NCBI GenBank assembly: GCA_029881805.1
Contig: JAOULW010000011.1
Location: 1-59,407 of the forward strand
Length of the DNA stretch: 59,407 bases
DNA from: Candidatus Bathyarchaeota archaeon
GTDB lineage: Archaea > Thermoproteota > Bathyarchaeia > Bathyarchaeales > Bathycorpusculaceae
Reading direction: 5' to 3'
In this document: in pieces, positions 25,971 through 29,826 of the stretch
Numbering within the stretch: position 1 is the stretch's first letter
Layout of the letters: the number at the start of each line of letters is the position of its first letter
Notes under the pieces: model-generated
The model's database searches: none
The model's input: the letters and a program-made list of their open reading frames with translations, nothing else
Told to the model about the DNA's origin: nothing
Program-made: the position numbers and the translations under genes

Positions 25971-26447
25971 CTACACAATCACGTTAAACTGCTGAAGCAC
26001 ATCCGCTTTCTCCATGATGTAATTACAGTAATGGCACTTCAGCAGTAGCGGGTCCTCATCTTCCACGTAGAATTTCGCTAAGACAGGCTCGTTGCTGTTG
26101 CTTATGCAAGCGGGATTAGCGCATTTAATAATGTTGTCAATTACTTTTGGTAGTTTGACTCTCTGCTTCTCTATGACCTTATAGTCGCGAATGATGTTGA
26201 TGGTTGCGTGTGGAGCCAACAAGGCAATTTTGTGCACTTCCTGTGGCTTAAGCGCTCTCCCTTCAACTTTAACTATGTCTTTGACTTTGAAGAGCTTGCT
26301 TGGCACGTTGATTGCGATTGTGATCACTCTTTTTTCCCGACCGGTTATTCCTAAAATCTTAGCGACATCCAAGGCATGTCCGCCTGTGATGTGGTCAATG
26401 ACCGTGCCGTCTTTGATTTTGGAAACGCGTAACTCCGTTTCGCTCAT
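25971..26447 (-). CDS. pyrI: Aspartate carbamoyltransferase regulatory subunit
   Basis: A 158-residue subunit, full length. The N-terminal allosteric domain has VSKIKDGTVIDHITGGHALDV, which holds the nucleotide-binding residues of PyrI. The C-terminal zinc domain has CANPACISNSNEP and LLKCHYCNYIME, with the four zinc cysteines. It binds CTP/ATP and contacts PyrB in de novo pyrimidine synthesis. Unusually it is divergent from pyrB rather than downstream of it. A TATA-like CTTTTATCC lies upstream on its strand around 26488-26496. Confidence 0.95.
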   Translation of the reverse strand: MSETELRVSKIKDGTVIDHITGGHALDVAKILGITGREKRVITIAINVPSKLFKVKDIVKVEGRALKPQEVHKIALLAPHATINIIRDYKVIEKQRVKLPKVIDNIIKCANPACISNSNEPVLAKFYVEDEDPLLLKCHYCNYIMEKADVLQQFNVIV

Positions 26448-26562
26448 ACTCAGCCCCTATTTAGGAAGGCTATATCGCAAACAGGGATAAAAGATTTTAA
26501 TTTTGACGCCGGTTTGGACGGTTTTACGCTTTTGATAAAAAGTTATTTAGAAGTTGCGCTGA

Positions 26563-27501
<939 letters not shown>

Positions 27502-27508
27502 CAGAAAC

Positions 27509-29719
27509 TCATGTTAATGCGAATCTGTCTAAGGCAGTCAACGTGCCAATTGAGCCGCATGAAGGACATTTACGCAGTAAACCAAACCAGCTTTTTTTGC
27601 AGTTTTGGCAATAAGTAAATTTGCGGTTGTACGTGAAAAGCTCTACGTTATGGTTTTCAATAAGTTGTCTTGTCAAGGAGGCAAGATCATCGGATTTGAA
27701 TTCCACTCCTCCAAGCTCTATTACAGTCATGCTTCCGCCCACGTTTAACCCGCTTAGTCTTTGATCAACGGCTAGCGACTCAGGAGAAATATTGCCATTC
27801 TGCAAATTTAGCTTCATAATCGTGGAATAGAATGGTTTTTCTCTTGTTCCCGAAAACTTCACTCTCGCAATGCCACATTTTTCGATATCCAACTCCGCCA
27901 ATCTTGCAGAAGCCTCAAAACTTGGCAATATGGCCGGAACCACACGTTTTCCCCGCCTTCTACCAATTTTGTGAGTAAAAGCCACTATGTTCTGGATGAT
28001 TTCTCCAGCGAAATCTAATGTTTTCTTGTTGTGGATATTTTCTTCGTAAAAGAATTCTGAGGCCTCCTCAAACCCTGCGAAATTTATTATTCGAGAACAA
28101 TTTTCGAGTCTGAAGTACTGGTCACCGTTGGCGCTTTGCATGATAAACGGAAGCACGCCTTTACCGTAATGTCTAAGCATTCTGTACTTGATTTCTAAGG
28201 CGCGCATTGCCATCTCCAACCTCTCTTTTAGAATCTCGAAAAATTTTGTTCTATCCTTCTCGCACTCGTAGGCGATGCGTGGCACGTTGACTGTCACGAC
28301 CCCAAGGCAACCAGTGCGCAAAGTGTCTGTTTCCCAGTCTTCGTTCAAATTTGCCTCGAGTTTGCATCCAGCAGCAGAAAAAACAGAGTGTTTTTGTTTC
28401 TTTTCGGACAAATTGGCAAAATACAGCATTCCTTTTCCAGCGGCTAAGGTGTGTGCTTTTCGAAACAGGGCGTTTGCTCGTTCATCAGTGAAGACTTCTG
28501 GGCGGATTTTCAGAATCAATTTAGCATTAGTTAACGATTTAGCTGCACTTTCCTCGGCGAATATTTCAAGGAAAAGCGAGGCTAAAAGTTGGCATTTTTC
28601 GACAAAATCCCCGTATTTGCCGGCAGGTTTTCCAGAAGGACCTAGAGCCGGTTTCTCGTTGACAAAATCTGGAACAGTAAGCTCTAGGCCTAAGGAAGCA
28701 TTCACATGTTGGTTTATGTTTGAAATGAATAAGCGTAAAGAATCTTTGATTCTGGCTGAATCTAAATTCCTTACGAAAGGAGCGAGAAAAACGTTAAGGT
28801 AATCAAACGTCTGCGTTTCTTCCAATTCCTTTGCCGAATGTAGAAGAACGTTGAATATTAGCGACAAGGCCGACTCAAGGCTTTGGGGTGGTGGATAAGC
28901 AGGTTGAGCAGCGTCCGTCTTTTCTAGATTTAGACCATTCTGAAGGAAAAATCGTAGGTCGTGCATTATTTCAGTTGGCTTGAGAATCCAGCTGCTTAAG
29001 CCGTTTATATGTAGAGAACCGGATAAATGTGCGTCTGCGATGTCTCTTGGAAGAATGTTCAGAAGGATGTACTCTTCGAGAACAGTTTTTCCAGCCATCT
29101 CGTGTAGTGATGCGGAGGTGAGAGGTGTTTTAGCCTTGGTGTCCATTAAAGAGGCGACTTGATAGACAGGCAGGCCTAAGCGAGTGAGCTTGTGGCGATA
29201 TTCTTCTAGGTCCTTCTCGATTAAGATTGCATTTACGACTTCTCTGATGAGGGGAGCTGTCAAGTATTTTGTTTTTGATTTGAGTAGCCGTTTTTCTGCT
29301 TCTTTGGCTACTTTTTTGGCTAGCTCAGCGGGCATTTTGGCCTCTTTTGTGAGAGCATTCGCGATTTTGTTTGCGTCAAATTCTTGCAGTGCAAATCGAG
29401 AAGTGCGGACAAGCATGCCTTTTGGTTTGAAGGCTTTCTTTTCGATTTTGTCTGCGATGTCAATGACCATTATGCCGAGTTCGGTTAGACAATATTTCCT
29501 TGATTCTATGTCTACTTCGATCAAATCTGCCTTGAGCAAAAACTTCAGGTGGTAAGCAAATCTTCCTGCGTCGCTGGTCGGGTTCATCTTGAGCGAACTC
29601 ATCAACTCGGTATAAGAGAGAGAGCCTCTGTCAAAAAGCAGGTTCAGAATTTGTAGTCTGATAGGTGATGAAACAGCCTTGAGTATTTTGACTCCTCGCA
29701 CTCGGCGTGCAGTAGACAA
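27509..29719 (-). CDS. NrdD-like protein with ArsR-type HTH and ATP-cone, no glycyl-radical segment
   Basis: A 736-residue fusion. Residues about 1-80 are an ArsR-like winged helix (AVSSPIRLQILNLLFDRGSLSYTELM, then AYHLKFLLKADLI). Residues about 92-180 match an ATP-cone (LQEFDANKIANALTKEA ... TAPLIREVVNAILIEKDL). Residues about 195-700 follow anaerobic (class III) ribonucleotide reductase: SGSLHINGLSSWIL, the FVNEKPALGPSGKPAGKYGDF region, VVTVNVPRIAYEC. Near the end is a zinc ribbon (C704, C707, C718, C721). The chain stops 15 residues after the last Cys, where real NrdD continues into the RVxGY glycyl-radical loop. The N-terminal cysteine of the usual PFCQDWDLR is also missing (KPTEIMHDLR). 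It is therefore unlikely to be a working reductase and may be a nucleotide-sensing DNA-binding regulator. It starts at TTG. Confidence 0.85.
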   Translation of the reverse strand: MSTARRVRGVKILKAVSSPIRLQILNLLFDRGSLSYTELMSSLKMNPTSDAGRFAYHLKFLLKADLIEVDIESRKYCLTELGIMVIDIADKIEKKAFKPKGMLVRTSRFALQEFDANKIANALTKEAKMPAELAKKVAKEAEKRLLKSKTKYLTAPLIREVVNAILIEKDLEEYRHKLTRLGLPVYQVASLMDTKAKTPLTSASLHEMAGKTVLEEYILLNILPRDIADAHLSGSLHINGLSSWILKPTEIMHDLRFFLQNGLNLEKTDAAQPAYPPPQSLESALSLIFNVLLHSAKELEETQTFDYLNVFLAPFVRNLDSARIKDSLRLFISNINQHVNASLGLELTVPDFVNEKPALGPSGKPAGKYGDFVEKCQLLASLFLEIFAEESAAKSLTNAKLILKIRPEVFTDERANALFRKAHTLAAGKGMLYFANLSEKKQKHSVFSAAGCKLEANLNEDWETDTLRTGCLGVVTVNVPRIAYECEKDRTKFFEILKERLEMAMRALEIKYRMLRHYGKGVLPFIMQSANGDQYFRLENCSRIINFAGFEEASEFFYEENIHNKKTLDFAGEIIQNIVAFTHKIGRRRGKRVVPAILPSFEASARLAELDIEKCGIARVKFSGTREKPFYSTIMKLNLQNGNISPESLAVDQRLSGLNVGGSMTVIELGGVEFKSDDLASLTRQLIENHNVELFTYNRKFTYCQNCKKSWFGLLRKCPSCGSIGTLTALDRFALT

Positions 29720-29758: not shown

Positions 29759-29826
29759 AGGTAAGAGTTTAAAGGTGTTAGGGAACACTTATTTTTGTGA
29801 CGTTTACATGATGAGTCTAATCTGAT

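Follow-up and report, generated by a model that had tools for sequence, protein, structure and literature searches.

The minus strand of the 59,407-nucleotide stretch of archaeal DNA analysed here (the window) encodes a protein that joins a winged helix and an ATP-cone to a body derived from class III ribonucleotide reductase (NrdD). We consider it likely that this protein lacks catalytic activity, senses adenine nucleotides and regulates the transcription of reductase genes, acting like bacterial NrdR but independently built; both its binding to DNA and its ligand are inferred. We refer to the family of proteins with this winged helix, ATP-cone and NrdD-derived body as R, to the window genome as G000, and to the family of the window genome as f1. 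R is found across the phylum and often beside working reductase genes, and so probably acts as a sensor controlling how much DNA precursor is supplied in archaea without NrdR.

The whole R gene (27509-29719, minus strand) is an open reading frame of 736 aa with a TTG start. Its three-part architecture, including the zinc ribbon, had been proposed in a preliminary description of the sequence and is borne out by Pfam and by an AlphaFold model computed from 57 family members (mean pLDDT 88.7), which contains the winged helix, the ATP-cone and the NrdD-like body. Residues 13-86 (29462-29683, minus strand) match the winged helix-turn-helix families DUF7347 and HTH_5 (3.5e-06 for each), and in the model this domain consists of helices at 19-31, 36-42 and 51-63 and strands at 67-70 and 75-78. 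The recognition-helix stretch DAGRFAYHL is nearly invariant in the R family, while R21, H57, Y76 and G82 of the winged helix are invariant in the family alignment. Judged by Pfam, alignment and model together, R thus has the fold with a conserved recognition helix that defines an ArsR-like winged helix. The ATP-cone spans residues 104-174 (29198-29410, minus strand; Pfam 1.1e-07), carries the motif VRTSxxxxEFDxxKI with the adenine-site residues present, and scores 32.8 bits against a Pfam cut-off of 25.8 (PF03477). The NRDD body, predicted to be non-catalytic, occupies residues 203-724 (27548-29113, minus strand), and its homology to class III NrdD is supported by Pfam (PF13597, 7.2e-68) and by Foldseek, in which the best PDB matches to the model were class III reductases. 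The score against the NCBIfam NrdD model (TIGR02487) was 239.9 bits, below the cut-off of 326. A zinc ribbon, C704-x2-C707-x10-C718-x2-C721, was located by Cys alignment (27557-27610, minus strand).

Residues needed for radical chemistry were compared in an alignment of 104 distinct R proteins and 37 true NrdDs. The first-strand Cys (C79, T4 numbering) was present in 36/37 NrdDs and in 0/104 R proteins, the thiyl-radical Cys of the finger loop (C290, T4 numbering) in 37/37 and 19/104, respectively, and the radical Gly in 37/37 and 10/104. No R protein possessed all three, and 79/104 possessed none. The Asn of the TVN motif was kept in 103/104 R proteins, and the four zinc Cys were kept in 99% and were invariant in the 57-sequence set. 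At the three radical positions the window protein has Glu, Cys and Leu: its first strand, WILKPTEIMHDLR, bears Glu250 (28970-28972, minus strand) where NrdD carries Cys, while Cys452 (28364-28366, minus strand) is the counterpart of the finger-loop Cys, a residue that most relatives lack and that the preliminary description had missed. With the first-strand Cys absent and the finger-loop Cys present, the window protein does not have both catalytic cysteines. The chain stops 15 residues past C721, so that a tail ending in LDRFALT and the stop codon (27509-27556, minus strand) lie at the place of the glycyl-radical loop, with Leu at the Gly position. The absence of this loop and the alteration of the N-terminal catalytic Cys motif, both claimed earlier, therefore stand. 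No separate glycyl-radical gene was found downstream of R, the next gene being the convergent pyrB.

Variation at the C-terminal loop follows lineage, with RITGR or YAGR in a few R lineages, RxSAKY or RESTRY in many, and a bare end in f1 and the ammonia oxidisers; these variants are stages in the decay of the loop. In a body tree, R split from NrdD with a support of 0.964. The tree is unrooted, and the loss of residues is therefore the argument that R descends from an active NrdD. Some R genes (L014, L019 and L064) have a stop codon inside the aligned stretch that shortens only the C-terminal tail, which suggests that the tail is dispensable. The possibility that R is a frameshift or pseudogene was ruled out by full-length frames and dN/dS values well below 1.

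Purifying selection is strongest on the winged helix and the ATP-cone, which are also the best-conserved domains of R. Mean top-residue frequencies were 0.74 for the cone, 0.69 for the helix and 0.51 for the body. In close pairs, dN/dS ranged from 0 to 0.16 for the helix and from 0.05 to 0.38 for the body, and was 0.03-0.05 for the cone in 8/9 pairs. Values were lowest in helix and cone in 8/9 pairs; the exception is the cone in L006/L008, two sequences separated by few substitutions. We compared the cone with the nucleotide-site residues reported for NrdR, namely V48, K50, R51, E56, F58 and K62 (PMC9110341). V48 corresponds to V or I in 104/104 R proteins, E56 to E in 102/104, F58 to F in 104/104 and K62 to K or R in 103/104; in the window protein the Glu56 counterpart is Gln112. 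Phosphate-binding Lys50 is replaced by Thr in 99/104 and Arg51 by Ser in 104/104, a Thr-Ser pair that is also found in part of the true NrdDs. These counts indicate that the adenine-facing part of the site is kept while the phosphate pair is swapped to Thr-Ser, and the preference of R for a ligand, itself only inferred, may for this reason differ from that of NrdR.

The preliminary description had asked whether the fusion is conserved across Bathyarchaeia; it is, and the conservation extends further. Matches to an R query were obtained in 160/163 genomes of the order, a pattern far beyond chance, and most of these genomes encode a separate NrdD in addition to one full-length HTH-ATP-cone-NRDD protein. 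Beyond the order, R is present in most of the class families f10-f20, f21-f23 giving only NrdD-level matches, so that almost every searched Bathyarchaeia genome has R except in these three families. The f21-f23 genomes (G201-G219), also Bathyarchaeia, are without R and mostly without NrdR too. The placement of the window in Bathyarchaeia is based on its relatives L003 and L004, and Thermoproteota as the name of the phylum is inferred. At the level of the phylum, R occurs in further families, including ammonia oxidisers bearing AmoA, where it was the only NRDD-domain protein found and scores over the Pfam NRDD cut-off. AmoA was checked in twelve genomes of f25, f50, f53 and f65; other ammonia oxidisers were assigned by family membership. 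A scan of viral contigs gave no viral copy of R; its sole match was to the helix domain, at 33%.

R is independent of NrdD and of its activase NrdG. Genomes of f10, f13, f15 and f17 carry R without a true NrdD and have class I/II-type reductase genes, which are of class II where the family was tested. NrdG2 scored over the cut-off in 10/10 NrdD-bearing genomes and in 0/27 NrdD-less genomes. R is also present where NrdD is the only reductase found (G178, G179, G184, G198 and G200). Since it occurs both without NrdD and with NrdD alone, R is not restricted to any one class of reductase.

Linkage of R to reductase genes of two classes was observed in the gene neighbourhoods, and constitutes evidence beyond that of the preliminary description. 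Among 82 loci, 16 have R upstream of nrdD and 5 have it upstream of nrdJ, in each case on the same strand, and one further nrdJ is convergent. We then added 20 loci, 15 of them from ammonia oxidisers, and all 15 showed R followed by nrdJ, bringing the ammonia oxidisers with this arrangement to 17/17. Reductase-linked R is found in 11 families, with nrdD in f4, f6, f9, f19 and f20 and with nrdJ in f17, f25, f50, f53, f60 and f65. These counts are lower bounds, as some loci end near contig edges. The nrdJ neighbours that were tested pass the TIGR02504 cut-off and are thus of class II. The nrdD neighbours comprise two subtypes, and a glutaredoxin-like gene lies between R and nrdD in f4 and f9. 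In G031 (L070:3561-5911) an NrdD belonging to the other subtype follows R, and the spacer between them holds a truncated remnant of glutaredoxin; in the congener G028, R is followed by glutaredoxin and the usual NrdD. The G031 locus is an in-place swap of the reductase gene. Unusually long reductase frames were seen at L118 (the 1104-aa NrdD of G180), L199:6543-10286 (a NrdJ of 1247 aa) and L141 (1276 aa), some with family matches in pieces, and are possibly due to inteins.

In the window family R is unlinked to nrd genes; it adjoins pyrBI, with pyrI and pyrB located at 25971-27501 of the window, and any control of nrd genes in G000 is inferred. Over all loci, pyrB lay within three genes of R in 38/82, mostly convergent. 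The only other NRDD gene of G000 is complete, RVVGY included, and belongs to an nrdR-nrdD-nrdG cassette (L001:701-3960); a class II nrdJ is on a different contig. The cassette meets the earlier proposal to look for a second complete nrdD with nrdG in the same genome. It had also been stated that a split radical domain, or an activase working with R, would refute a regulatory role; neither was found, as the true NrdD with NrdG sits elsewhere in the genome. The canonical NrdR of G000 is found only at that separate cassette, and TIGR00244 was not among the matches to the window protein, which is not a member of NrdR. NrdR scored over the cut-off in only 6/76 genomes, five of f1, all with R, and G212 of f23. 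With 56 of the 76 bearing R by our count, NrdR is absent from 51/56 R-bearing genomes. That canonical NrdR is confined to f1 and one other genome of the 76 suggests that the cassette was acquired from bacteria; the most parsimonious interpretation has R as the resident regulator and nrdRDG as an acquisition by f1.

We searched the promoter regions for a shared operator. Upstream of the window gene (29767-29788, minus strand) are a TATA-like TTTAAAC (29767-29773) and the inverted repeat GTGTTCCCTAACACC (29774-29788), whose role as an operator is unproven. TTTAAAC is enriched at R promoters (0.32 vs 0.02), which may reflect only the core promoter. The repeat has no other exact copy in the window genome, near matches were no commoner there than those of a reversed control, and it is conserved upstream of R only in close relatives; on these grounds we do not claim it as an operator. 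No operator common to R and nrd promoters was found, and when the R-nrdJ spacers of ammonia oxidisers were aligned, no common dyad stood out clearly. In the R-nrdD spacers of L075, L076 and L084-L088, a conserved TGTCAAACAC...GTRTGTYAAT forms an imperfect inverted repeat ~50 bases after R, and could be an operator for nrdD.

We propose that R is a descendant of a class III reductase that lost catalysis and became a regulator of reductase genes. Its winged helix would bind operator DNA near its own promoter and nrd promoters, a target set that we infer, and the ATP-cone, possibly together with the old effector and substrate pockets of NrdD, would sense adenine nucleotides and deoxynucleotides. 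In NrdR, ATP plus dATP promotes DNA binding (PMC12176259), and by analogy nucleotide occupancy would rearrange the winged helices of an R dimer. Solved structures show NrdD to be dimeric (PMC11226230), and an NrdD-like dimer of R would supply two helices for a palindrome. Nucleotide binding would then change the oligomer or domain arrangement and turn reductase genes down at high dATP, as NrdR does in bacteria. That R represses rather than activates is a guess from this analogy. In a broader version, R would be a master regulator, ancient in archaea, of the supply of DNA precursors: its cone would read adenine nucleotides, its old NrdD sites the four dNTPs and substrates, and its winged helix would control nrd genes of any class. 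This version is possible but doubtful.

Several observations speak against a regulator of reductase genes: the lack of a shared operator, the absence of nrd linkage in the window genome, the canonical NrdR found there, the Thr-Ser pair in place of the phosphate-binding residues of NrdR, and the fact that linkage would also fit a regulator acting at the protein level. In that last case R would be an inactive paralogue whose binding to NrdD or NrdJ inhibits or modulates the enzyme, and the helix domain would be needed only to dimerise or to autoregulate. Although the NrdD-like fold and the conserved linkage agree with such a role, R is linked to both NrdJ and NrdD and occurs without NrdD, and its nearly invariant recognition-helix stretch would not be needed for a purely protein-protein function; we regard this explanation as improbable. 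We give somewhat less weight still to a nucleotide-responsive regulator that acts mainly on other genes, such as those of pyrimidine synthesis or replication, with a reductase linkage that is partly historical. The position of R beside convergent pyrB and pyrI in the window family, and the synteny with pyrB in 38 loci, could be taken that way, but pyrB is convergent with R and hence not in one transcription unit with it, while linkage to nrd genes, of three kinds, was found repeatedly, across 11 families and in 17/17 ammonia oxidisers checked.

The retained C452, the near-universal TVN Asn and the Gly kept in the C-terminal loop of a few lineages might instead point to an active, unusual class III reductase that obtains its glycyl radical from elsewhere or uses another radical route. 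This is hardly credible, however, given that the Cys/Cys/Gly set occurs in no R protein, that NrdG is absent from NrdD-less genomes, that the window genome has a complete NrdD with NrdG, and that R is present in ammonia oxidisers in which AmoA was seen, organisms that are aerobes.

A published protein with the HTH-ATP-cone-NrdD architecture was not found in the open-access full-text literature, a search that left most subscription papers and all preprints outside its scope; a term search within PMC9531940, PMC9669993 and PMC4390871 likewise gave no mention of one. NrdR has been described as rare in archaea (PMC9110341), and because of this rarity the regulation of reductase expression is open for most of them. 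R provides a concrete, testable candidate across a phylum that includes ammonia oxidisers, which are abundant in the ocean (PMC6593220). If the regulatory reading is true, R represents an independent invention of reductase control in which the regulated enzyme itself was reused as the sensor. Archaeal genes scored as anaerobic reductases by family models may also be miscounted, as the R proteins of ammonia oxidisers pass the Pfam cut-off.

Among known systems, NrdR (TIGR00244), the bacterial reductase repressor, resembles R in coupling an ATP-cone to a DNA-binding domain, in being associated with more than one class of reductase gene, and in the adenine-pocket residues that are kept. NrdR is ~150 aa long and binds DNA through an N-terminal zinc ribbon, whereas R is ~740 aa, is predicted to bind DNA through its winged helix, and carries a C-terminal zinc ribbon on a dead NrdD. 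With NrdD (PF13597, TIGR02487) R shares the fold, the order of ATP-cone then body, and the C-terminal zinc ribbon, but R lacks the glycyl-radical loop and the first-strand Cys, has mostly lost the thiyl Cys, has an extra winged helix and falls below the TIGR02487 cut-off. ArsR-type winged-helix regulators (PF01022, PF12840 and DUF7347, PF24038) share the fold of the N-terminal domain; in contrast to these standalone small metal sensors, the winged helix of R is fused to an ATP-cone and a reductase body.
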